29,015 nucleotides of DNA from a virus. The notes beneath the pieces were generated by a model. The model was not told the origin of the DNA and did no database searches. It was given only the letters and a program-made list of their open reading frames with translations. The stretch's first letter is position 1, and each line of letters opens with the position of its first letter. Location: positions 1 through 29,015 of the IMG/VR virus record IMGVR_UViG_3300036860_000076; one strand, given 5' to 3'. Positions 5,017-20,075 of this stretch are shown piece by piece. A program made the translations under genes and the position numbers.

Positions 5017-5241
5017 ATGGCGAAGGGTAAGGTTTACGTCGCGGTCGAATCCGGGTCTGCGAATATCGACGGCGAGTATTACGCTTTTCATGCAGGCGTC
5101 ACTCGGGTCCGTGAAGGTCACCCGCTATTGCAGCAGTTCCCAAACTATTTTGGCGAAGTCGATGATCATGTCGATTTTGAATGGGAGACTGCAACGGCGG
5201 CTCCTGACGAGAAGCGCGGTGCGACTCCTCCGAAGAGGTGA
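5017..5241 (+). CDS. Small hypothetical protein near the capsid genes
   Basis: The 74-residue product starts at ATG 5017 behind a strong AGGAGGGG. The N-terminal half (KVYVAVESGSANIDGEYYAF, then GVTRVREGHPLLQQFPNYFG) looks like the small beta-rich proteins often encoded just after phage capsid genes, where a strand describes an entry followed by a 'must be above / HPLL' turn. The last 20 residues are Pro/Lys/Arg-rich and probably disordered. I cannot name a function; a neck-associated or accessory head protein is possible. Its end overlaps the start region of the next gene. Confidence 0.65.
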   Translation: MAKGKVYVAVESGSANIDGEYYAFHAGVTRVREGHPLLQQFPNYFGEVDDHVDFEWETATAAPDEKRGATPPKR

Positions 5242-5243
5242 CA

Positions 5244-6644
5244 ATGACGACGCGGGTTTCGGTTGCTTACGTTCACAGTGAGGAAGTCGCGTACTCATGG
5301 TTCCGTAGTCTCACCGGATTAGTGACTTGGGACCGGGCGCACAATCGCCATGTCGTTGACAACGAGTTTATCGACATCCAATATTCCTCCGGTGGACTCG
5401 CGGAAGCAAGGAATAAGGCGGTCGAGGAATTCCTTGACAAGACGCACAGCGATTGGTTGTTCTGGCTTGACACTGATATGGGGTTCGAGCCTGACATCGT
5501 TGATCGTCTGCTCGACGTGGCTGATCCTAAGGAACGGCCGATTGTCGGTGCGCTCGCGTTTGCCTTTGTCGCAAACGAGCAGGATGGTATGGGAGGCAAG
5601 ATTTGTCATACCGTCCCGGTCATTTTCAACTGGTACAACACTGAGCACGTTCGGGGTTACCAAACAATCGGTCCCTATCCGATCAACACACTGCTTCGCT
5701 GTTCCGGTTTGGGCTCGGCCTGTATTCTGATCCATCGCTCGGTCTTCGAGCGAATGCAGATTGAGCTAAAGAGCCGTACGTGGTACGACCAGATTCGGAT
5801 TATCAATGATGGCAAGCCGGAATGGATGGGCGAGGATCTTTCGTTCTGCTCTCGTGCTGGCAGTATGGATATCCCAATCTATGTCAATACTGCGGTCAAG
5901 ACGACGCACTACAAGCATGTCTGGGTTGGCGAACGCCAATTCTGGGAAGAGTGGACTCCCGAGCCGGCGGAAGAGGAAGTCGCTGTATTGGTGCCAGTCA
6001 TGCGACGACCGCATAACGCAGAGCCGTTTATGCGATCGTTGCGCGCGTCGACGGGGCTCGCGCGGGCTTATGCAATCTATGACCGTGAAGACCTCGAAAC
6101 TGCGGCTGCATGGAAAGCGGCCGGAGCCGAACTGATTGACATCAACGAGTTTCGGGAACTTGATCGTCCGGGCCGATTTTCAGAGAAGGTGAATGTCGGC
6201 GCGGAGCAGACGAGCGAACCGTGGGTGTTTATCTGCGGTGATGACGTTAGCTTCCATGCCGGCTGGCTTGACAGTGCAATGTCAGTTGTTCGGGATGACG
6301 TGCATGTCATTGGTACCAACGATCTCGGCAATCCTCGGGTTCTCATGGGTGACCATGCAACCCATATCCTGATCCGGCGCGATTACATCAAAGCTCCGGG
6401 CGCAAGCTGGGGGAAGCCGGGGACGATTGCCTACGAGGGCTATCACCATTGGTTTGTCGATGATGAGATCGTGACTGCTGCGAAGCATCGGCATTGCTGG
6501 GCGATGGCGCTTGGGTCGATTGTCGAGCACCTACATCCCTTCTGGGGCAAGGGAAAGCCTGACAAGGTATACGAGCTTGGGCAGGATAACGCGGAAGACG
6601 ACAAGAGGGAATTCGAGCGGCGATGCAACAAGTATCTCCCGTGA
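5244..6644 (+). CDS. Two-domain GT-A glycosyltransferase
   Basis: This 466-residue protein appears to carry two glycosyltransferase-like units. The first (residues 1 to about 235) has a GT2-type nucleotide-sugar site: LAEARNKAVEEFL, then WLFWLDTDMG with a D76-T-D78 motif, and a late WMGEDLSFC acidic motif. The second (about 245-466) begins VAVLVPVMRRPHN, as GT-A domains do, and has FICGDDVSFHAGWLD (Gly-Asp-Asp at 332-334) and WFVDDEIV. Such enzymes transfer sugars from nucleotide donors; the acceptor is unknown, probably a virion protein or host glycan. ATG 5244 is preferred with AAGAGG upstream; GTG 5238, overlapping the previous stop, is also possible. It is the first gene of the modification island. 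Confidence 0.8.
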   Translation: MTTRVSVAYVHSEEVAYSWFRSLTGLVTWDRAHNRHVVDNEFIDIQYSSGGLAEARNKAVEEFLDKTHSDWLFWLDTDMGFEPDIVDRLLDVADPKERPIVGALAFAFVANEQDGMGGKICHTVPVIFNWYNTEHVRGYQTIGPYPINTLLRCSGLGSACILIHRSVFERMQIELKSRTWYDQIRIINDGKPEWMGEDLSFCSRAGSMDIPIYVNTAVKTTHYKHVWVGERQFWEEWTPEPAEEEVAVLVPVMRRPHNAEPFMRSLRASTGLARAYAIYDREDLETAAAWKAAGAELIDINEFRELDRPGRFSEKVNVGAEQTSEPWVFICGDDVSFHAGWLDSAMSVVRDDVHVIGTNDLGNPRVLMGDHATHILIRRDYIKAPGASWGKPGTIAYEGYHHWFVDDEIVTAAKHRHCWAMALGSIVEHLHPFWGKGKPDKVYELGQDNAEDDKREFERRCNKYLP

Positions 6645-6685
6645 GAGAGCGAGTCAAGGAATTACGGCGAGTGCTGAAGGGTACG

Positions 6686-7333
6686 ATGCCAACGCTGAGC
6701 ATTCTTATCCCGACCATTGCGAGCAGGCGGTCGCTACTCTCTCGGCTGCTCTGGACGTTGGAACCGCAGCTCTGTCCCGAAGTCGAAGTGATCATCCATG
6801 CCTCAGAGAAGATCGGGATGGGCGCCAAGTTCAATGAGCTGTTTGCAATGGCAAACGGTCGATACGGTGTGCTCATTGATGATGATGACAACGTCGTTTC
6901 CGACTACGTTCCTACAATTCTAGAAGCGACGGGTGAAGGGAACTACGAAGACCCGGACTATGTTGGCTACGGCGTACTCTATACGGTCGATGGTCGATAT
7001 CGTGAGGTCTATATAAGCGATCCTCGTATTGCCGTTCACCAGCCGTACCGTCTAGACCTAATTCTGCGCCACGTCATGCACAAGTGCCCGGTTCTTGTTG
7101 AGAAGGCGAGAGCACACAAGTTCGGGGATGAGTATGATGCCGACTACCATTGGGTTTCGGAGATGATCGCAGACGGCTATCCGCACAAGCCAATGGTGCT
7201 CGATCGGGTGCTGTATCACTACGACTACTGGCCGCAGTACACGGTGGGGATCGACCCGAAATGGGGGCCAACACAGCGGGAAGTTGGGAATTGGCCATTC
7301 GAGCATTCTCGGTTTACTTGGGTGAGTGAATAG
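6686..7333 (+). CDS. GT2-like (GT-A) glycosyltransferase
   Basis: From ATG 6686 the product is 215 residues and starts immediately with a GT-A fold (MPTLSILIPTIASRR). It has the KFNELFAMANGRYGVLIDDDD block, with the Asp run at 65-68 providing the metal/nucleotide-sugar site. It is short for the family and lacks membrane segments, so it should be soluble. GAAGGG sits 5 nt before ATG 6686. Earlier in-frame starts exist at GTG 6641 (overlapping the upstream TGA) and ATG 6623, the latter adding 21 residues that do not look like part of the fold. Directly downstream of the two-domain glycosyltransferase, it probably adds a further sugar to the same acceptor. Confidence 0.75.
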   Translation: MPTLSILIPTIASRRSLLSRLLWTLEPQLCPEVEVIIHASEKIGMGAKFNELFAMANGRYGVLIDDDDNVVSDYVPTILEATGEGNYEDPDYVGYGVLYTVDGRYREVYISDPRIAVHQPYRLDLILRHVMHKCPVLVEKARAHKFGDEYDADYHWVSEMIADGYPHKPMVLDRVLYHYDYWPQYTVGIDPKWGPTQREVGNWPFEHSRFTWVSE

Positions 7334-7869
7334 TGGAATTCCAGACTGACAAGGTGTATTGGGGATACGTGCCGACGTACGAGCGCATGGCTGCGGAGAT
7401 TGGGCCTGCGGGACGAGTCTGTGAGCTGGGTGTGTATCACGGTGACTCGTTAGATATGTGGCTGACGTTTTTCCCCAAGGGCATTGTTGTTGGTATCGAC
7501 CATGATGATCAGTGTCGGTGGCCAGTCGGATCGTACAAGATCGTTTCTTTGCAAGATGATGAGCGCCTTGTGCCGGCGCTGAAAGAGTACGCAGAAGCGT
7601 ATGACCTGATCGTTGATGACTGTTCGCATCAAGGTCACTTGACGAAAGCCTCGTTCGATTTGCTATGGCCGTTGGTTGCTCCGGGCGGATGGTACGTTAT
7701 CGAGGATTGGATGGTTGGGTTACCGAGCTGGCAGAATCAAGAAAGCTATAATATTCCAACACTCCAAATGGCGCAGGATTTCTTGTATTTACTCGATCAG
7801 GGAAAAGATACAGGAGTCGAAGACATCACATATCGCTGGGGCCAGATCATCCTGCGGAAGAAGCGGTAA
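7333..7869 (+). CDS. SAM-dependent methyltransferase (class I, Methyltransf_24-like)
   Basis: This 178-residue protein is read from GTG 7333, which shares its G with the upstream TAG. The class I signature is clear: VCELGVYHGDSLDMW (31-43) forms the SAM-binding loop, VVGIDHD (52-58) the acidic residue after strand 2, and DLIVDDCSHQGHLTKASFDLLWPLVAPGGWYVIEDW the central part of the fold. This type occurs in sugar-modification and cephalosporin-hydroxylase-like enzymes. Within a glycosyltransferase cluster, O-methylation of a transferred sugar is the likeliest role; that is inference. Confidence 0.8.
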   Translation: MEFQTDKVYWGYVPTYERMAAEIGPAGRVCELGVYHGDSLDMWLTFFPKGIVVGIDHDDQCRWPVGSYKIVSLQDDERLVPALKEYAEAYDLIVDDCSHQGHLTKASFDLLWPLVAPGGWYVIEDWMVGLPSWQNQESYNIPTLQMAQDFLYLLDQGKDTGVEDITYRWGQIILRKKR

Positions 7870-8369
7870 TGCATACGACAGCGATGGAATGGGTGCAGAA
7901 GTTTGCCACCGATGACAACATCACGATCCTCGATCTCGGAGGCCGTGATATCAACGGGACGCCGCGACCTTTGTTCCCCAATTCTGTCTACACGACGCTC
8001 GATCTTCTCCCCGGCGACAATGTGCATATCGTTGCTGATGCCGCGACGTGGGTTCCGACTCGCCAATGGGATCTCGTGCTCTGTACCGAAGTCTTCGAGC
8101 ACACGCCGGCATGGCCGCTCATCTGTCAAACAGCATTCAAAGCATTGCGACCAGGCGGAATGTTTGTGACGACGATGGCCGGGCCAGGCCGGGGTCCGCA
8201 CTCTGGGGTTGACGGGGAGAATCTGAAAGAGGGCGAGCATTACCAGAATATCGAACCGGAATGGTTACGGCTGGCGCTCGAACAGTGGGGGTTCGTTGAT
8301 ATCGAGATCGAGCATTTGCAGGGTACGTATGCATGTGACGTTCGAGCTGTTGCGAGAAAGGCTGAGTAA
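7869..8369 (+). CDS. SAM-dependent methyltransferase (class I, Methyltransf_11-like)
   Basis: The 166-residue product starts at ATG 7869 in a TAATG overlap with the preceding methyltransferase. It shows a compact class I fold: ITILDLGGRDING (residues 18-30) as the SAM loop, YTTLDLLPG for strand 2, DLVLCTEVFEHTPAWPLICQTAFKALRPGGMFVTTM for motifs II and III, and a C-terminal half with EPEWLRLALEQWGFVDIEIE. The fold matches small-molecule or sugar methyltransferases rather than DNA methyltransferases, because no NPPY/DPPY-type motif is present. It is probably co-translated with its neighbour. Confidence 0.8.
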   Translation: MHTTAMEWVQKFATDDNITILDLGGRDINGTPRPLFPNSVYTTLDLLPGDNVHIVADAATWVPTRQWDLVLCTEVFEHTPAWPLICQTAFKALRPGGMFVTTMAGPGRGPHSGVDGENLKEGEHYQNIEPEWLRLALEQWGFVDIEIEHLQGTYACDVRAVARKAE

Positions 8370-8624: not shown

Positions 8625-8867
8625 ATGCCTAGCAAGGGTTCTTCATGGCAATGGATTGTTACTGTCACTGACGCGAATGGTCCGCATCCAGAAAAGATTA
8701 TCGGTTCATGCAATGGTACCTTCGCCAGTGCCACATATTACAAGGACGACGGATATGGCAACCTGATTGTCCCTGACGGCAGCTACATGGCTAACCCGTC
8801 TGGGGTGGCGTGTGAGGAGCAGGCTGTCGAGGCATGGGCGATTGCCAACTATACCAATCGTTCCTAA
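8625..8867 (+). CDS. Hypothetical protein, 80 residues
   Basis: ATG 8625 is one base after the previous stop codon, with GGGGA 5 nt upstream. The protein (WQWIVTVTDANG, then ATYYKDDGYGNLIVPDGSYM and an alanine-rich C-terminal helix with CEEQAVEAWAIANYTNRS) looks like a small compact alpha/beta protein. No family is recognised. An upstream in-frame extension to 8565 would overlap the preceding gene and is less likely. Confidence 0.55.
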   Translation: MPSKGSSWQWIVTVTDANGPHPEKIIGSCNGTFASATYYKDDGYGNLIVPDGSYMANPSGVACEEQAVEAWAIANYTNRS

Positions 8868-8884
8868 TTCAGGGAGTCGCTGCG

Positions 8885-9565
8885 ATGCTCTCTGAGGCCA
8901 ATATTCTGCAAGTTAATTTCGGCAACTTTGATGCATCCAGTGGTACAGCTACTCTGCCGTCAGGGACTTCTGAGGGAAGTGCGGTGCTGTTGGTCGCACG
9001 ATCAGCGAGCGCACCTGGTGGTTTGAACGTTCCTGCTGGCTTTGAGCAGGACATTACCCCAATCAGTTTAGGTGGCGCGGCCTTACACGCTTGGCGCCGA
9101 AAAAACTGTGCAGTAGGTGAATCGTCTTGGCCCATTTCTCTTCTGGCGCAGATAGCGGATCTCGTTCTCTGGTTTGCGTATGAAGTGACAGGACTGGATC
9201 TCACCGAACCGCTCGATCAATGGGCCACGCATGGTGCAACTGGCGTGACCTCCGTTTCGACGGGAACGACACCGCAGACCAACGCCGATGACATCATGTG
9301 CATGGCGATTCACGCCACGAATACAGTCACTACTATCTCAGGGTGGACGAACGGGTTTGATGTGATCCCCGGGGAGTTTCAGTCGCAGAACGCTGGCGCT
9401 GATGGTCAGGAAGCGATGTCAGTTCAACGACTCTATCCCGGGGTGGCCGGCCAATACGAATGCACGGCAACGCTGGGAGCTTCGGTTACTGCGATGGGTG
9501 CGATGATTGCGTATCGCGCGGTTGGTGAGCTGCCTGTAGACCCCGGTGGTGAGGTGATGGGCTAA
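8885..9565 (+). CDS. Probable virion surface protein with beta-sandwich domain
   Basis: This 226-residue protein is read from ATG 8885 behind AGGGAG. The sequence alternates short hydrophobic strands with Gly/Ser/Thr turns. Segments such as ATLPSGTSEGSAVLLVARS, HAWRRKNCAVGESSW, TSVSTGTTPQTNADDIMCMAIHA and VTAMGAMIAYRAVG fit the adhesin-like jelly-roll domain seen in many phage and bacterial surface proteins. The middle of the 10749 product has the same order of strands. It is presumably a fibre or head-surface component and a plausible acceptor for the nearby glycosyltransferases. No enzyme motif is visible. Confidence 0.6.
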   Translation: MLSEANILQVNFGNFDASSGTATLPSGTSEGSAVLLVARSASAPGGLNVPAGFEQDITPISLGGAALHAWRRKNCAVGESSWPISLLAQIADLVLWFAYEVTGLDLTEPLDQWATHGATGVTSVSTGTTPQTNADDIMCMAIHATNTVTTISGWTNGFDVIPGEFQSQNAGADGQEAMSVQRLYPGVAGQYECTATLGASVTAMGAMIAYRAVGELPVDPGGEVMG

Positions 9566-10270
9566 ATGAGCAACCTGTTCCTCACGAACACTGACATGGC
9601 GGCATTGGTTACTTCGGGGGCAGAGACAACTCGCCATAAGTTGAATGGATCAGCGGGTGCGGCTTCGACGTTGCGAAATAAGAATGGTGCGACCGGGCCG
9701 ACCGTTCCTTTGAAGGTAACGGATTCAACTGTAGCCGGTACAGATGGCGCGACGATTGCATGGTACTCGGAACAACTACAGGCGGTCACGATTGCGGGGC
9801 AGATTGTTGCGTCACTGTGGGGACGAGAGAATGCCACGACGAACAATGCCGCTCCTGCTCTTGGCGTCTATCGGTGTAGCGATGTTGGTGCAGAACTGGC
9901 AACAATCGTTGATCCGGCAGGGGTCCAAACGGTAACTTCTGCGCCGGAATTTGCGACGACAGCAGGCGGTGCAGCTAAGACGGTCACTATTGCTGCGGCG
10001 GATGTTGTTGATACCGGCATTCTATTAGGTGAGCGCCTGAAAGTTGCACTGTTCATTGAAGACGCCGTTGACCAGGGTGGCTCGGGGTCAATGTCCTCTT
10101 CCGCGCAATGTCAATTTTGGGTGAACGGACCTGACGGCGTTGCGGGTCAATCCAAGATTGCGTTTACTGAAACGATTTTGTCGGTGGTGCCGACTATCGT
10201 TGGAACTATTAAGCCAGTTGTTGCTGGTCGTCCAACGAATCCAGGGCGTGAAGCGCCAGTTATTCTTTAA
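9566..10270 (+). CDS. Probable virion structural protein, 234 residues
   Basis: ATG 9566 directly follows the previous TAA, with GAGGTGATGGG as ribosome binding site. The protein is rich in Ala, Thr, Val and Gly with beta-strand periodicity (TVPLKVTDSTVAGTDGATIAW, VTIAGQIVASLWG, RLKVALFIEDAVDQGGSGSM) and ends in a Pro/Gly-rich tail (VVAGRPTNPGREAPVIL) that may be an anchoring or linker segment. I do not recognise a family. Position and composition suggest a surface or fibre protein that works with its neighbours. Confidence 0.55.
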   Translation: MSNLFLTNTDMAALVTSGAETTRHKLNGSAGAASTLRNKNGATGPTVPLKVTDSTVAGTDGATIAWYSEQLQAVTIAGQIVASLWGRENATTNNAAPALGVYRCSDVGAELATIVDPAGVQTVTSAPEFATTAGGAAKTVTIAAADVVDTGILLGERLKVALFIEDAVDQGGSGSMSSSAQCQFWVNGPDGVAGQSKIAFTETILSVVPTIVGTIKPVVAGRPTNPGREAPVIL

Positions 10271-10287
10271 GGAAGGTGGCTACTTAA

Positions 10288-10728
10288 ATGGCTCGCTTTG
10301 CATCTGCATATCGCACAAGTGGTGCCGGCTCGGCTACCTTACCGATGGCTTCGCTGTACGCGCAAGCAAACACACCGTTATGGGTGGTGGAAGTTGGCAT
10401 AACCAACACGACTGCTGTGCTGTTGGAGGTTACGCTCCAGCGATTGAGTTCTACGGGAACGCAGGGTACAGCGCAAACAGTTATCTATGAAGAGAATGAT
10501 ACAATCACCGTGAAGGGTGATCCACGTCAAACGCATAGCGTTCTTCCAACTCTCGTAGCTGGTGAAGTTCGGCGTGCATCTATTGGTGCATCTGTCGGTT
10601 CCGGTGTGATCTTCACGTTCGGTGGTCGCGGTTTGTATATTCCGCCAGGTACCGCCAATGGAGTCGGGCTGTTACCGATCAGCACGACTGGTCAAATCTG
10701 TGACGTGTACTGGTCTTGGGACGCCTGA
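10288..10728 (+). CDS. Small beta-rich virion protein
   Basis: The 146-residue product starts at ATG 10288 behind AAGGAAGG. It has a MARF start, many short strands (WVVEVGITNTTAVLLEVTLQRL, VIFTFGGRGLYIPPGTANGVGL) and a final aromatic strand (CDVYWSWDA). A 'phage decoration or fibre-base' beta sandwich is likely. It resembles the 3855-4325 product in size, start and strand layout, suggesting distant paralogy, but identity by eye is low. Exact role unknown. Confidence 0.55.
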   Translation: MARFASAYRTSGAGSATLPMASLYAQANTPLWVVEVGITNTTAVLLEVTLQRLSSTGTQGTAQTVIYEENDTITVKGDPRQTHSVLPTLVAGEVRRASIGASVGSGVIFTFGGRGLYIPPGTANGVGLLPISTTGQICDVYWSWDA

Positions 10729-10748: not shown

Positions 10749-12659
10749 GTGCCGCCTCGCCGAAATTTTCTTAAACCACCTGCTCGAATTATCCGGCGAG
10801 GATCTCGCCTGCTTCGCCCTGCTGTTGATTCCGGTGGTGGTGCTGCTCCGGCGTTTGTTGCACAACCAATTGCACAGCGGCGCCGAACGCTTCCTGTCGC
10901 AAGGCGTGGGAATTTCTTTGATATTCAACTTGGTGGTGGGCCGCAGCTAGTTGCTGCGTATCAAGTTGACTCTGGCGGTAGTAATACCAACACACTTCTG
11001 TCGCCAGCGTTTATGCCTGCTCCAGGCGAGATCATTATCGTCAAGGCACAATCTGAGTTTGGTGACGGTGGTGCATTCCCTACACCGACTGGTGGCGGGC
11101 TGACCTACCGGTTGCGTCGTAGTGACAGCAGTTCTTCACATGATCGAGTCGCATTGTGGACTGCCGAGGTTAGTGCTAGTCCCGGCTCAATGCAAGTGTC
11201 GCTGGGTTCGCCAGGTGCGACCGCGAATGCTCACTCAATGGTTGTTGAACGCTGGGCGAACGGGTATCTGGCGCTCAATCCAGTGTCAGTGCTAACAACT
11301 GGCGTGGCGAGCATACCTTCGACGACATTGATCACGACGTTGCCACGGTCAGTTATTTCGTGGTTAAACTCGGACTGGAATGCGCTTAATGGTGCCAGCC
11401 GGGTCTACAGTGTGACGCCTGGTGTGGTATATGAGACCGGGTACATATTCGTTTCGACGAAGGCGACATTCTATTGGGCTTGGCAACGTGCGGCAACGCA
11501 AGGTACACAGACGTTCGGGCTTACTGCGCCTGGAGGGCAGAACTGGACACTGGTTGGGATCGAGATTCTTGCGGACCCGATTGTTGTACCTGGATTTGTT
11601 GCTCAGTCGCGTGGTCGCCGACTTGCACTAACTCGGCGTGGTGAATTCTTCTTTGCTCCTCCCATTGTTGCAGCACCACCGCCAGTTGTTACGACTCCAC
11701 CGCAGTCTTTGACACAGCGGCGTCAATCGCTGGGGCAAGTACGGCGCGGTCGAATCTTCGGGACTGTGCCGCCTCCGGTCGTGGTGGCAGCACCGACGTA
11801 CACGCCACCGCTTTTGACAAGGCGTCGTCAACCGCTTGGGCGAATTCGGGATGGCCAGTTCTTTGCCACGGGTCCGAGTGCCCAAGAGCCTTTGCCGCTC
11901 TTGACACGCAGGCGTCAAGCATTGCCGCTATTGCGTCATGGGCGTCTCTACTCGGTGGTTCCAGCTCCGGTTGTTGTGCCGTCGGCAGTGTGGAGTCCTG
12001 GACCGATCGAGCCGGCACAGCGTCGTCTGAGCTTCCGGGTTCGTCGTGGCCAGTTCTACCCGGTCGTGCCAGCACCAGTGGTGGCCGCCCCGGCAGTGTG
12101 GGTTCCGCCGCTGATACAGTCGGCAACACAGCATCGGGTGTTGGGAATTCGGCGTGGCCAGTTCTTTGAGGCCCCGCTTATCGTGGTGGCTCCGGTCGTC
12201 ACGGGTGTCCCCGGATTCCTGACACGGCGGCGTCAACCGCTTCTGTCGCAACGACACGGACGCTTCTACCCGAGCTGGGGTCCGCCATCTGTCTGCCCGC
12301 GCATGCTCGCTCGCGGGCGTGGGAGGATGTTGCCGTCACGACGCGGCCGGTATTTCTGGCACGGGCAGAACTTCCCGGCGATGCCGCCGATGGTGCATCG
12401 CATCCGGCGTGTGTATCGTCCGGGCCTTCCGCAGACTCGTTATCGCACAAGGTTCTTCTGGTTGTTGCTCGTGCCTCCGTCCGAGGTCTGGGCGACGGGT
12501 CGGGTCGTGCAGAGCGGGGTGGCCGGCTCTGGCTCGAACGCCTCAGACGCGACAGGGACGGTTGGTCAGAGCGGGGCCACTGGACATGGCGAGAGCGGAG
12601 ACTCCGACCACGGTACGGTGAAAGAGGAACACGTCGAGGGGAGTGTGAGACTCCATTGA
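10749..12659 (+). CDS. Arg-rich repeat protein with embedded beta-sandwich domain
   Basis: This 636-residue protein is read from GTG 10749 behind GGGGAGGTGAG. It holds at least nine copies of a basic motif, roughly QRRxxLxxxRRGxFF: one at residues 42-57, then eight between 284 and 536 (R-R/D/H-G glycines at 54, 298, 334, 369, 398, 434, 470, 504, 533), with degenerate copies at both ends. Linkers are Pro/Val/Ala-rich (APVVVAPP type). Residues 66-278 form a Ser/Gly/Thr-rich beta-sandwich like the 8885 product. The last 60 residues switch to a Gly/Ser-rich acidic tail. Very high Arg content in an extended repeat suggests binding to a polyanion or the capsid surface, which is inference. Its stop overlaps the TTG of the connector gene. 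Confidence 0.75.
   Translation: MPPRRNFLKPPARIIRRGSRLLRPAVDSGGGAAPAFVAQPIAQRRRTLPVARRGNFFDIQLGGGPQLVAAYQVDSGGSNTNTLLSPAFMPAPGEIIIVKAQSEFGDGGAFPTPTGGGLTYRLRRSDSSSSHDRVALWTAEVSASPGSMQVSLGSPGATANAHSMVVERWANGYLALNPVSVLTTGVASIPSTTLITTLPRSVISWLNSDWNALNGASRVYSVTPGVVYETGYIFVSTKATFYWAWQRAATQGTQTFGLTAPGGQNWTLVGIEILADPIVVPGFVAQSRGRRLALTRRGEFFFAPPIVAAPPPVVTTPPQSLTQRRQSLGQVRRGRIFGTVPPPVVVAAPTYTPPLLTRRRQPLGRIRDGQFFATGPSAQEPLPLLTRRRQALPLLRHGRLYSVVPAPVVVPSAVWSPGPIEPAQRRLSFRVRRGQFYPVVPAPVVAAPAVWVPPLIQSATQHRVLGIRRGQFFEAPLIVVAPVVTGVPGFLTRRRQPLLSQRHGRFYPSWGPPSVCPRMLARGRGRMLPSRRGRYFWHGQNFPAMPPMVHRIRRVYRPGLPQTRYRTRFFWLLLVPPSEVWATGRVVQSGVAGSGSNASDATGTVGQSGATGHGESGDSDHGTVKEEHVEGSVRLH
11598..12356 (+). repeat. Tandem coding repeat array, 29-36 codons per unit, eight units
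   Basis: Eight copies of the Arg-rich motif follow one another with spacings of 36, 35, 29, 36, 36, 34 and 29 residues between the conserved Gly codons. DNA-level similarity remains: four units (near 11709, 11814, 11901 and 12219) share TTGACA...GGCGTCAA-like sequence, and three share GGCCAGTTCT near the motif end (about 11850, 12045 and 12155). This suggests duplication with later divergence. Confidence 0.75.
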
Positions 12660-13573
12660 CGAGTAGAACATACGACGTTGGCGACAAGGCCAAACTCGAC
12701 TATGAATTGCGCGATGCAGCAGGCGCGCTCATTGACGCGACTGTGAATTTCACGAGCACCAAGCCGGACGGGACTGCCGGGCCAGGCGGTGTTGCGACGG
12801 ATGAGCCGGGCACTGGTGAGTATTCATTCACGTTCACGATTGATCAGGCTGGACTTTGGCTCTACAAGTTCACGTCTTCTGCGGCAGCGGTCGAAGTCAC
12901 GGACGGAATTATGTTCGTCCGCCCGGACGCTACCGCCAATGTCTATACCACTATGGCTGAGATGAAGGGATCAATGGGCCTGGATCAGACCGATACTTTA
13001 GATGACGAAGATATCCTTGATGGCATTCTCTCCGCTTCACGATGGATCGACGGTTACACAGAACGTCATTTCTTTAGGATGACGGACACCCGGACAGTAG
13101 TTCCGAATGACCGCTATTGTCTGGAGCTTGGTTCGTTCATGGACCTTCTGTCAGTAATCAGTTTGAAGACGGATGAGAATGCAGATGGCAACTTTGAGAC
13201 CACTTGGGCAGCGTCCGACTACCAGCTCCTCACTGAGGACGGTACGCCAAATATCAATGCGGCGCCGGAACCGAAACCGTATACGGAGATCAAGGCGATC
13301 GGACGACTCTTCCCGCTAGTCTACAACCTACCGCAACGACGGACCAATCTTGTGCAGATCGAGGGTGTCTGGGGGTGGCCGATGATCCCTGACGCTGTGC
13401 GTCGGGCAGCTCGACTTCTAGCAGTCGAACATTTCAAGCTCAAGGATGCACCGTTCGGAGCAAGTGGAATTGCCGACCTCGGGATTGTTCGCATCCGACA
13501 GAATCCGAAGGCAAGAGAATTGCTCCAGCCGTACCGTAAGACCAGCGTCTTTACCGGCTCAATGTTATTGTGA
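12656..13573 (+). CDS. Head-tail connector (gp6/adaptor-like) fused to an N-terminal Ig-like domain
   Basis: The 305-residue product starts at TTG 12656, overlapping the upstream TGA. Residues 1-92 look like an Ig-like beta sandwich (YDVGDKAKLDYELRDAAG, EYSFTFTIDQAGLWLYKF, ending IMFVRP). Residues 100-305 match the phage connector family (HK97 gp6-like): MAEMKGSMGLDQTDTLDD, DGILSASRWIDGYTERHFF, a beta-rich middle and the helix AVRRAARLLAVEHFKL. It would form the ring below the portal. The gene opens the head-tail joining module, far from the capsid gene it normally follows closely. The Ig-like extension might bind the cell surface or neighbouring virion proteins. Confidence 0.8.
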   Translation: MTSRTYDVGDKAKLDYELRDAAGALIDATVNFTSTKPDGTAGPGGVATDEPGTGEYSFTFTIDQAGLWLYKFTSSAAAVEVTDGIMFVRPDATANVYTTMAEMKGSMGLDQTDTLDDEDILDGILSASRWIDGYTERHFFRMTDTRTVVPNDRYCLELGSFMDLLSVISLKTDENADGNFETTWAASDYQLLTEDGTPNINAAPEPKPYTEIKAIGRLFPLVYNLPQRRTNLVQIEGVWGWPMIPDAVRRAARLLAVEHFKLKDAPFGASGIADLGIVRIRQNPKARELLQPYRKTSVFTGSMLL

Positions 13574-16139: not shown

Positions 16140-19100
16140 ATGGGCCGTTCAATTCGCTTCGATCTCGTAACCGATGCACGCGGTTACGGTCGAGGCATGC
16201 GCGAAGCCGAACGGTTCAATAAGCGTTTCACTGGTAGTATCACCGCGTTGCAGCGTACGACCTCTAAGGGTTTCAAGGTCAACGCTGATACCAAAAAGGC
16301 TGAGTCTAATTTCAACCAACTTAGTGATGCTGTCAAGAAATTCAATGTCACCGCACTGACGCTGCGCAATCTCACGAAGCTGCTCAAGTTCCCTGCCATC
16401 ATTGCTGCCGGCAATGCTCTGGCAGGGGTGTTCGTTTCGGTTGCGGCCGAAGCTGTGAGCCTAGTCTCAGCACTGTCTCCGCTCGTAGGCATTATTCCGG
16501 CTGCTGGCGTTGGCATGCTTGCGTTTGCTCAAGCGACGGGTGTATTGAAACTTGCGTTCGGTGGGATTGGGCCTGCACTCAAGCAAGCCGGCGTCGATAC
16601 TAAGAAATTCAATGAGGAGCTAAAGAAGCTCCCGCCTGCGCAGCGGCAAATCGTCCTGGCGATTGTGCCATTCAAGGAAGAACTGATCAAGCTCCGGGGT
16701 ATTGCGGCAGCAGGGATTCTTCCGGGACTGCAAGCTGGTCTGCGAGCACTGCATCCGCTCTTCGGTATCGTGCAGAACGCGGTGCGTTTGACAGCAGTCG
16801 AGCTTGGTGGGCTGATCGCGGCTGGTGGCCGGCTGTTGGGTTCCGGGCCATTCCGTGCAGACTTCAATCGGCTCGCTCGCGGGAACGTCACGATCATTCA
16901 CGAGATGGGCAGGGCTGGGCTCTTGCTCATTGATGTCTTCCGCAACATTGCGGTGACCGCGCAACCACTAGCTATTTGGATTGCGCGGATGGTTGTTGGT
17001 TGGGCTGACGGGCTTCGGGACTTCTTTGCGCAAGCTCGGGCATCCGGTGCGCTGACCGCGTTCTTTGTTCGCACACAGCACGTCATCTCTACGCTGGTAG
17101 ATGCGATCGGCCGGTTCGCGCATGCATGGGCACCGATCTTCGCTGCTGCATTGCCGCAGGGCGAGCGTTTCCTGACGATGCTTCGTAATGGTGCAGCAGC
17201 ATTCGATCGGTTCACGCACAGTGCTCGTGGTGCTGCAATCATTAGGGATATCTTCGCGCAGTCCCGAATCGTGATGGCTGCTGTTGGACGACTGATCGTC
17301 TCCATCGCTACGAACTTCTCATTCCTCGGGACGACGATCTCGGGCTCAGGGATTGCCGCACTCATTGACAAGATTGCAACGCAAGGTGTCCCGGCATTTG
17401 CCCGGCTGGCGAGGAATACTGGCGGCGCATTCCTCAAGAACCTTGTCCAGCTCGGCATCAACCTGACACGGATCTTTGCCATTATCGGCGGGAACAGCGG
17501 AACGTTGACCTCGTTCGTGGGATCGCTTGCGCGCATCGCTGGCGTTGTTGCAACGATTCTCGAAAAGCATCCCGGGCTTGCGAGTTTCGTGACGACGATT
17601 GCTGCGATGGCTGCAATCGGAAGCGGGACAGGGCTTGGCTCTGTTGCTGGCGCGCTCTCGAAGATCGGAAGCAATGCTGCTGTTGTAGCTGCGACGAACC
17701 GGAATACTGCGGCACTGAATGCCACGATGGGGGCTTCGGGTGCGAAGGCCAGTATTCTTTCCCGTGTCGGTAGTGTGTTCCTTGACATCGGCAAGAAAGC
17801 AGCGATCGGGACTGCCAGTGTTCTCAAGGCTGTTGCAATCCAGGTTGGTCGTTGGGTGGTCATGGGCGCGGTCGCGCTTGCGCAAGGGGCGCGTGTCGCT
17901 GCCGGCTGGTTGCTCGCTCTCGGGCCGATTGGACTTGTGGTCGCTGCTGTCGCGGTCGCAACGGTACTCATTATTAAGAATTGGGGAAAGATCAGTCGGT
18001 TCGTTGTTGCTGCTGCCGGTGCTGTTCTGAATTGGTTGAAGAGTAATTGGCCGAAGATCGTTGCTATTCTGCTCGGGCCGATTGGGCTTGCGGCGTTGAT
18101 GATCTACCGGCATTGGGCAGCTATTAGTCGTGCGACGGTTAAGACTTGGACTGCGGTTTCTGGTTTCCTCAGTCGAACTTCCGGTAACATTTACAACCGT
18201 GCCAATTTTGCATTCACTGCAATGTGGCATCGTATCGTTGCGCTCTGGAATGCGATTAGTCGTGCAACTAGTAATACATGGAATGCAATCTACGGAGCTT
18301 ACAGTCGTACGGTTGGTAATATCTTCAATCGAACGCGCTCGGGATTTAACTCGGTCAAGGATTGGATTTTCCGTACTTGGAATGCAATCAGTTCTCTGAC
18401 GGGTCGGTTTGTCACTTCGTTCGGTCGAATCTTCGGTGGCATTCAGGGCGCAATCAGTAAGCCGCTTGCGTTCGTTGAAAAGATCATCTCGAAGTTCATT
18501 AACGTTGCGGGTACTGTCGCCGGTTGGGTACAACTCCCGTTTGCGAACGCCATGAAGTCGTTTCGCTTCGGAGGCGGTGGTCCGGTCTCTGCTGCGAGTG
18601 GCTTGAAGGTGAACGCTGGAGCGAAGCTCGTGGCCGGACGAATGGCAAAGGGCGGCCCCGCTCGCGGTCCTGGTGGAACCACGGCAGACAAGATCCCTGC
18701 CATGCTTTCGCACGATGAGCATGTGTGGACTGCACGCGAGGTCCGAAACGCTGGTGGCCACGCTGCAATGTTCGCTCTGCGACGGTTGCTCGGTGGCGGC
18801 AAGCAGGCGAGGAATTCTATTCTTCTAGGGCACCGGCAGATTCGAGCTGCTGGTGGAATTGCAAATATCCGTGGTCGCGGTGACATTGGTGGAGACCCTG
18901 ACGTTCTGAGGATTGCGCCACGTTTCGCGGTCGGTGGCGGTGTCATTCGTGGCACACAGAATTTCCTCAAGGGTGTTGACAGCCATCCGTATGTGTGGGG
19001 CGGTGTCGGGCCTGGAGGGTACGACTGCTCGGGACTGACTGGTGAAGTCTGGAACCGACTCACTGGTCACCCTTCGTATCGTCGCGTGATGACGACGCAC

Positions 19101-20075
19101 TCGAATTTCGGCGGGTTGGGATTCCGGCCTGGTCGTGGAACGTACACGATCGGCGTGAGCAGTAGTCACATGGCTGGGAACCTTGCAGGGCTTGGGTTCG
19201 AGGCCCGGTCAACAAAGAGCGGGATTCATATTGGCGGTTCCGCACGATCGGTGACGAGCTTCCCGCAGCAGTTTTTCCTGCCACAAGCGGGCGGGAAATT
19301 TACTAGCGGTGGTGGCGGATTCTTTGGAGCCATCGGAAGATTCTTCTCGAAGATCCAAGAGAAGGCGCTTGGCGCTCTGACTCACATGGCAATTCCTGGA
19401 TTCAAGGGTGCCGGTGGCGGACTCTTTGGCGATATGTTTGTTGCCATCGGAAAGTCGATTCTCGGTGGCATTCCTGGAATGATCCGGGACGCAATCATTC
19501 CGTCCGGCGATGGTGGTGGGCCTGGTGGTGGAACGCCGCTAGCGAACATGCGGCTCGGTCAGCAGATGGCTGCGCAGCGTGGTTGGGTTGGCGCGCAATG
19601 GTCCGCGCTGCGAACGTTGTGGCAGCACGAATCCGGCTGGAGTAACACGGCTCGAAACCCGTCGTCCGGTGCGTTCGGTATTCCGCAAGGATTGCCGGCC
19701 TCGAAGATGGGTGCTGCTGCTGCTGGTGGAAATGCTCGGGCGCAGATTGCTTGGGGTTTGAGCTACATCGCTGGCCGGTATCGGAATCCAGTAAACGCTT
19801 GGAACTGGTGGCAGGGACACAACTGGTATGGCAGCGGACTCGATGCTGTGTTCCGTAAGCCGTCAATGATCGGTGTGGGAGAGAAGGGTGCCGAGCGTGT
19901 GACCGTGACTCCGGTCGGCCGGCGTGGTGCTGGCGGTGGAGTGCCAGTTACGTACAATATTACTGTCAATGCGTCGGGCAGTAATGGTGACGAGATTGCG
20001 GCCAAAGTTTATGAGGTAGTTGCGAAGGTGGAACGAGATCGCTGGTTCGCGGAGCGGCGGGGAGGTCGGCGCTAA
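16140..20075 (+). CDS. Tape measure protein with NlpC/P60-like and lytic transglycosylase domains
   Basis: This 1311-residue protein sets tail length and is ejected at infection. The N-terminal part is helical and basic. Hydrophobic segments lie near residues 80-145 and 570-660, followed by Trp-rich repeats (WNAISRAT, WNAIYGAY, WNAISSLT) around 670-760. A Gly-rich region with DKIPAMLSHDEHVWTAREV is common in tape measures. Two cell-wall hydrolase domains follow: an NlpC/P60-like peptidase (YDCSGL, Cys963; candidate His1010 in SSSHMAGN or His1030 in GIHIGG) and a lytic transglycosylase (LWQHESGW with Glu1164, GAFGIPQGLP, AWNWW). The C-terminus has MIGVGEKGAERVTVTP, typical of tape measures. 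Together the enzymes should open peptidoglycan locally for DNA entry. Confidence 0.92.
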   Translation: MGRSIRFDLVTDARGYGRGMREAERFNKRFTGSITALQRTTSKGFKVNADTKKAESNFNQLSDAVKKFNVTALTLRNLTKLLKFPAIIAAGNALAGVFVSVAAEAVSLVSALSPLVGIIPAAGVGMLAFAQATGVLKLAFGGIGPALKQAGVDTKKFNEELKKLPPAQRQIVLAIVPFKEELIKLRGIAAAGILPGLQAGLRALHPLFGIVQNAVRLTAVELGGLIAAGGRLLGSGPFRADFNRLARGNVTIIHEMGRAGLLLIDVFRNIAVTAQPLAIWIARMVVGWADGLRDFFAQARASGALTAFFVRTQHVISTLVDAIGRFAHAWAPIFAAALPQGERFLTMLRNGAAAFDRFTHSARGAAIIRDIFAQSRIVMAAVGRLIVSIATNFSFLGTTISGSGIAALIDKIATQGVPAFARLARNTGGAFLKNLVQLGINLTRIFAIIGGNSGTLTSFVGSLARIAGVVATILEKHPGLASFVTTIAAMAAIGSGTGLGSVAGALSKIGSNAAVVAATNRNTAALNATMGASGAKASILSRVGSVFLDIGKKAAIGTASVLKAVAIQVGRWVVMGAVALAQGARVAAGWLLALGPIGLVVAAVAVATVLIIKNWGKISRFVVAAAGAVLNWLKSNWPKIVAILLGPIGLAALMIYRHWAAISRATVKTWTAVSGFLSRTSGNIYNRANFAFTAMWHRIVALWNAISRATSNTWNAIYGAYSRTVGNIFNRTRSGFNSVKDWIFRTWNAISSLTGRFVTSFGRIFGGIQGAISKPLAFVEKIISKFINVAGTVAGWVQLPFANAMKSFRFGGGGPVSAASGLKVNAGAKLVAGRMAKGGPARGPGGTTADKIPAMLSHDEHVWTAREVRNAGGHAAMFALRRLLGGGKQARNSILLGHRQIRAAGGIANIRGRGDIGGDPDVLRIAPRFAVGGGVIRGTQNFLKGVDSHPYVWGGVGPGGYDCSGLTGEVWNRLTGHPSYRRVMTTHSNFGGLGFRPGRGTYTIGVSSSHMAGNLAGLGFEARSTKSGIHIGGSARSVTSFPQQFFLPQAGGKFTSGGGGFFGAIGRFFSKIQEKALGALTHMAIPGFKGAGGGLFGDMFVAIGKSILGGIPGMIRDAIIPSGDGGGPGGGTPLANMRLGQQMAAQRGWVGAQWSALRTLWQHESGWSNTARNPSSGAFGIPQGLPASKMGAAAAGGNARAQIAWGLSYIAGRYRNPVNAWNWWQGHNWYGSGLDAVFRKPSMIGVGEKGAERVTVTPVGRRGAGGGVPVTYNITVNASGSNGDEIAAKVYEVVAKVERDRWFAERRGGRR

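Follow-up and report, generated by a model that had tools for sequence, protein, structure and literature searches.

An arginine-rich repeat protein with a predicted beta-sandwich domain, probably carried on the virion, is encoded beside the head-tail adaptor of an uncultured actinophage-like virus

The analysis covers a virus record from IMG/VR, 29,015 bases long and referred to in its entirety as the window. Its genes follow the order of a protease-like protein and the major head protein (MCP), two glycosyltransferases and two methyltransferases, several variable genes, the gene of an Arg-repeat protein, a head-tail adaptor and a tape measure protein. The repeat gene opens with GTG downstream of a Shine-Dalgarno sequence, and its stop codon overlaps the TTG start of the adaptor gene (TTGA), which is likewise the case in L003, the locus of the closest relative. 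The features of this region are as follows.

8834..10728, + strand: three genes of unknown function immediately upstream of the repeat gene, without a counterpart in L003
10733..10739, + strand: Shine-Dalgarno GGGGAGG, read from the sequence, 9 nt 5' of the GTG start
10749..12659, + strand: open reading frame of 636 aa with GTG start, Arg-repeat/beta-sandwich protein
10749..10940, + strand: N-terminal extension (residues 1-64), not present in L003, holding a clear Arg unit and a degenerate one
10941..11579, + strand: beta-sandwich domain (residues 65-277), common to at least 40 other loci
12273..12656, + strand: conserved C-terminus (residues 509-636), which ends in a Gly/Ser acidic tail; its identity to L003 is 72% and its dS resembles that of the neighbouring genes
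12656..13573, + strand: head-tail adaptor with N-terminal extension (phrog_442, E 1.4e-17)

The coding frame at 10749-12659 is backed by an excess of third-position differences from L003 and by a dN/dS of 0.31, and these frame-specific substitutions rule out a chance open reading frame. The original prediction, made from the sequence of the window, had placed the gene near the neck connector, and this setting was borne out by the head/neck gene cluster around it and by the phrog_442 match of its downstream neighbour. The arrangement recurs in other viruses. In 23 of the 25 records in which a phrog_442 adaptor was found, the sandwich gene lies at most 2.5 kb from it, on either side, and in L075 it is located between the adaptor and the major tail protein. 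The nearest relatives of the MCP are those of Rhodococcus and Mycobacterium; together with the bacterial contigs that carry the sandwich (see below), these sequence matches point to an actinobacterial host.

Several neighbouring genes have features of their own. The adaptor (12656-13573) carries about 90 extra N-terminal residues ahead of the part that matches the adaptors of cultured phages, and Pfam gives this extra region a weak YtkA-like match below the cutoff (E 0.005). The tape measure protein (16140-20075) has 1311 aa and a net charge of +92, and its C-terminus contains a transglycosylase-like stretch (phrog_12661, E 9e-24). The glycosyltransferase/methyltransferase block, at 5238-8369 between the major head protein and the adaptor, possibly serves in virion glycosylation. 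Such a block is also found between the MCP and the neck protein of Pontimonas phage phiPsal1, with no sandwich gene at that block, and a glycosyltransferase-methyltransferase fusion represents a version of it in L075.

Nine R[RHD]Gx[FLYI][FYLS] cores were identified in the 636-aa protein, at residues 52, 296, 332, 367, 396, 432, 468, 502 and 531, with one ahead of the beta-sandwich and eight behind it. Shuffling of the whole protein (20,000 times) produced 0.04 cores on average and 2 at most. The cores of the C-terminal array are spaced by 29-36 residues, as regular as had been proposed, and the units are joined by Pro/Val/Ala linkers. The positions of the units are listed below.

10863..10919, + strand: Arg unit 1 (QPIAQRRRTLPVARRGNFF)
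11595..11651, + strand: Arg unit 2 (FVAQSRGRRLALTRRGEFF)
11703..11759, + strand: Arg unit 3 (QSLTQRRQSLGQVRRGRIF)
11808..11864, + strand: Arg unit 4 (PLLTRRRQPLGRIRDGQFF)
11895..11951, + strand: Arg unit 5 (PLLTRRRQALPLLRHGRLY)
12003..12059, + strand: Arg unit 6 (PIEPAQRRLSFRVRRGQFY)
12111..12167, + strand: Arg unit 7 (LIQSATQHRVLGIRRGQFF)
12213..12269, + strand: Arg unit 8 (GFLTRRRQPLLSQRHGRFY)
12300..12356, + strand: Arg unit 9 (RMLARGRGRMLPSRRGRYF)

Together, the window and L003 proteins have 18 units, which fit the pattern RRxxLxxxR-R-G-x-F-F. R0 and G2 are present in all 18, position 1 is basic in 17, and the two positions of the aromatic pair are occupied in 15 and 17 units, respectively. 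Between orthologous units of the two proteins, the core positions are 72% identical and the other positions 45%, which marks the units as constrained. The array was expected to be polycationic, and indeed residues 285-575 of the window protein (291 residues) contain 47 Arg, no Lys and 5 Asp or Glu, with a net charge of +42; the L003 array contains 54 Arg and 2 Lys, with a net charge of +51. Since the other genes of the window encode 514 Arg and 319 Lys (Fisher p 5e-10 against the array), base composition alone does not lie behind the Arg array, and GC bias was rejected as the source of the Arg excess. Behind the repeats, the Gly/Ser acidic tail of the original prediction was recovered at residues 586-636, with 7 Asp or Glu against 2 Arg or Lys.

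Residues 65-277 (213 residues) were modelled confidently as a 12-strand all-beta domain with a mean pLDDT of 89.2. The nine units and the sandwich that they were said to flank are thus both present, but only one clear and one degenerate unit precede the sandwich. AlphaFold2, working from an alignment with only two sequences over this part, assigned the repeats no secondary structure and a pLDDT of about 32-46. The array is predicted to be disordered and therefore a string rather than beads, so that the beads-on-a-string picture first offered is not supported by the models. In a Foldseek search of a viral library, the sandwich matched mycobacteriophage 'minor tail proteins' at E about 1e-5 and TM about 0.6, as a comparison of predicted models. 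Foldseek returned no match in the PDB at E 0.001 or better, and VIA-align of the sandwich with PDB folds reached a Z of 7.3 or less, covering under half of the domain, so that the sandwich is not ascribed to any named fold.

One close relative of the entire protein was found, at L003:6618-8567, with 649 aa, 57% identity, nine units and an equivalent gene position, and it is devoid of the N-terminal extension of the window protein. Eight units of the two arrays can be paired by position, and the identity of these pairs is 0.59 compared with 0.36 for non-matching pairs, which indicates that the array is old and not recently expanded. A DNA pattern of the unit gave 27 matches over IMG/VR, all due to chance save L003, and neither the adaptor nor the C-terminus as bait brought up further close relatives. 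The sandwich domain alone, used as query, reached 29 further viral loci and then more, and it was also found on bacterial contigs assigned to Sinomonas, Pseudonocardia and Actinomadura and in two Saccharibacteria MAGs. In an alignment of 28 members over about 210 residues, K, P, the SMVVERW strand, P, S and E are invariant. The sandwich is widespread in uncultured actinophage-like viruses.

The view that no named family could be assigned was upheld, with no match of the window protein in Pfam, NCBIfam or PHROGs. The sandwich was not found in Pfam, NCBIfam or the PDB, and three different sandwich members used as queries had no match among 50,697 GenBank phage records. No carbohydrate-binding family was recognised by Pfam or NCBIfam, and the Pfam search gave no match to an Ig-like domain. 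PHROG searches across 28 sandwich relatives yielded one weak match in one of them (phrog_553 minor tail protein, E 7e-4), and a search of the literature on phage head fibres with Arg-rich tandem repeats returned nothing relevant. The locus defines an unannotated family of putative virion proteins that is missing from Pfam, NCBIfam and the PDB, and all but missing from PHROGs.

The part that follows the sandwich takes various forms in the family. Neutral or acidic repeats of 18-20 residues are found in L034, L035, L042, L073, L078, L084 and L092, a 14-residue repeat in L086, an extra C-terminal domain in L040, L046-L048, L057 and L060, and almost no tail in L050-L056, L058 and L062. Arg/Pro arrays with periods of about 34-38 residues are found in the window, L003, L037, L075 and L072. 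The profile check proposed in the original prediction was performed with a single-unit HMM over all fetched loci, and only the window and L003 were significant. A later profile, built on a 35-residue unit including the linker, recovered L075 with 61 bits, where none of 300 shuffles exceeded 32, was marginal for L037 (1 of 300 shuffles), and scored the Arg/Pro array of L072 at a level not distinguishable from 300 shuffles. Judged by these sequences, the family retains the sandwich and swaps a repeat chain of unrelated sequence. The C-terminal tail of the 235-aa members (AFIAPRPLILRQAVNRASIY) was considered as a single Arg unit and is not claimed as one, having no support from the unit HMM.

The window phage and L003 are close to each other in most of the compared genes. 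Their MCPs are 97% identical, and their glycosyltransferases, methyltransferases and adaptors are mostly 85-93% identical. For the repeat gene, identity is about 50% over the first 500 residues, with 50% in the sandwich and 54% in the array, and 72% over the C-terminal 128 residues. Its dN reaches 0.39, whereas the MCP, glycosyltransferases, methyltransferases and adaptor have values of 0.02-0.08, and its dN/dS of 0.31 compares with 0.05-0.09 for the same neighbours. The elevation of dS in the sandwich and the array but not in the C-terminus suggests a likely exchange of alleles with a breakpoint inside the gene. The low identity of the repeat gene and the three upstream genes without L003 counterparts identify, at the sequence level, a hypervariable cassette within an otherwise conserved head operon. 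At the position of these three genes (8834-10728), L003 has one unrelated gene of 184 aa (6050-6604), and no kinship was found between the upstream protein at 9566-10270 and the sandwich.

From the recurrence of the gene in the connector block, the overlap of its frame with the adaptor and the predicted fold resembling minor tail proteins, we infer that the product is probably a virion protein. The explanation that we prefer, tentatively and at somewhat less than an even chance, is an accessory protein of the siphovirus virion, located at the head or neck, whose sandwich and C-terminus are fixed and whose Arg array is a multivalent binder of host polymers. The beta-sandwich and the conserved C-terminal part of about 120 residues would then be the fixed and probably virion-bound parts. 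The long disordered RRxxLxxxRRGxFF array would be exposed and would bind multivalently to surface polymers that are polyanionic or rich in aromatics. The likeliest of these are glycans in the wall or envelope of an actinobacterial host, and the array may aid a non-specific first contact with it. We place less confidence in the array as an exposed binder of polyanionic host polymers than in the virion location, and likewise infer the orientation on the virion, the ligand and the effect on adsorption. A precedent for such binding is mycobacteriophage Douge, whose capsid and tail carry beta domains that bind arabinan and glucan glycans of the host (PMC13033339). Against this reading stand the searches that recognised no carbohydrate-binding family and the partial PDB fold matches. 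The strictness of the RRG and FF cores also counts against a binder that works by general charge and points instead to a motif for specific docking.

Docking to the capsid itself is a serious rival, though a rather unlikely one, and is sustained by the strict core of the units. The Arg units would sit at equivalent positions in the capsid lattice, the disordered linkers would bridge neighbouring capsomers, and the sandwich would be a decoration domain. An extended chain of 29-36 residues spans, by arithmetic, about 10-12 nm, close to the capsomer spacing of HK97-type heads, which counts for this arrangement. It would also agree with the nine units in both sister phages and their position-specific identity, the kept cores and drifting linkers, the basic array and acidic MCP (net -5), the common period of about 34-38 residues among Arg arrays, and the precedent of PRD1 P30 (PMC7602432). 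However, the array is only 54% identical between sisters whose MCPs are 97% identical, and the unit number and N-terminal extension vary. Moreover, an array of Arg units is missing from many relatives, some of which have a tail of only about 20 residues, so stapling cannot be the general role of the family. The fast divergence beside a 97%-identical MCP tips the balance slightly away from a pure capsid staple and towards an exposed role that faces the host; as dS is elevated as well, part of this divergence may come from the exchange of alleles. Quite improbable in our judgement is the more specific version in which the nine RRGxFF units dock successive HK97-type capsomers at a spacing set by the period of about 34-38 residues. 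To our knowledge, this way of decorating or cementing the heads of tailed phages has not been described.

A fibre of the tail or neck, with the sandwich as receptor-binding tip and the repeat chains as mere flexible stalks whatever their sequence, is an unlikely explanation as well. It would account for the free swapping of repeats behind a retained sandwich, and it draws on the minor tail proteins among the viral Foldseek matches, on the phrog_553-like member and on the L072 member encoded near a pectin-lyase-like protein and transglycosylase/endolysin. Invariant RRG and FF cores and the exclusion of lysine would nevertheless be needless in a pure spacer, and the gene stands by the head-tail adaptor in most records, not after the tape measure gene. 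An internal protein, whose Arg array neutralises head DNA or leaves with the ejected genome, is very improbable. The net charge of +42 from Arg only and the head-cluster location would suit it, but a 213-residue beta-sandwich like those of surface minor tail proteins is ill suited to DNA packing, and most relatives have neutral or acidic tails. We give the same very low probability to a non-virion product of a rapidly evolving moron-like gene expressed from the head cluster. The exchange of the entire cassette between the sister phages and the want of a family annotation speak for it, whereas the recurrence beside the adaptor in many distinct records, the frame overlapping the adaptor and the constrained units speak against it.

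Among known systems, the mycobacteriophage minor tail proteins (Shauna1, Tweety gp21-type and MooMoo; phrog_553) are moderately similar to the window sandwich in predicted fold (TM about 0.6), but homology at the sequence level is missing (hhalign against Tweety gp21, probability 0.2%), and the window gene precedes the tape measure gene, adjoins the adaptor and encodes an array of Arg repeats. Ig-like decoration proteins and head fibres (T4 Hoc, T5 pb10, N4 gp17, phi29 gp8.5 and SPP1 gp12; PMC7602432) are likewise accessory, encoded amid head genes and composed of a beta-sandwich and an extended part with a presumed host-contact role. In the window protein, the extended part is a predicted disordered Arg array instead of Ig domains, a coiled coil or a collagen-like stretch, the sandwich has no Ig-like match in Pfam, and capsid binding is putative. 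PRD1 P30 is proline-rich, extended and mostly disordered in the capsid network (PMC7602432). The window chain shares with it the proline content (13% of the tail) and the predicted disorder (pLDDT about 32-46, from the two-sequence alignment), but PRD1 contains a membrane and belongs to a different phage lineage, P30 has no sandwich, and a sequence relation was neither found nor expected. Douge (PMC13033339) is comparable as an actinophage with beta domains on head and tail that bind arabinomannan and glucan, and differs in that these are Ig-like domains of capsid/tube proteins and baseplate modules, without Arg arrays.

The protein represents a new sequence family that is ordinary in kind, most likely an accessory surface or decoration protein of the virion with an unusual Arg-rich low-complexity chain. 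It is probably a component of the viral surface that changes quickly, and not a novel type of machine. If the array does bind host wall polymers or the capsid lattice, RRxxLxxxRRGxFF would be a simple binding peptide motif, and the locus a hypervariable surface cassette amid head genes, not tail-tip genes.

Individual members of the sandwich family show further features. The C-termini of the L037 and L075 proteins are formed by 8-residue repeats (GTTARPDS), and L084 has a similar end. The member at L072:7830-11948 has 1372 aa and a very long Arg/Pro array broken by a DUF4082 domain, and its region contains genes of a pectin-lyase-like protein and transglycosylase/endolysin. In L068:6801-8606, on a contig of a Sinomonas genome, the sandwich ends a protein with a long Pro-Thr linker, which may be a host surface protein or part of a prophage.
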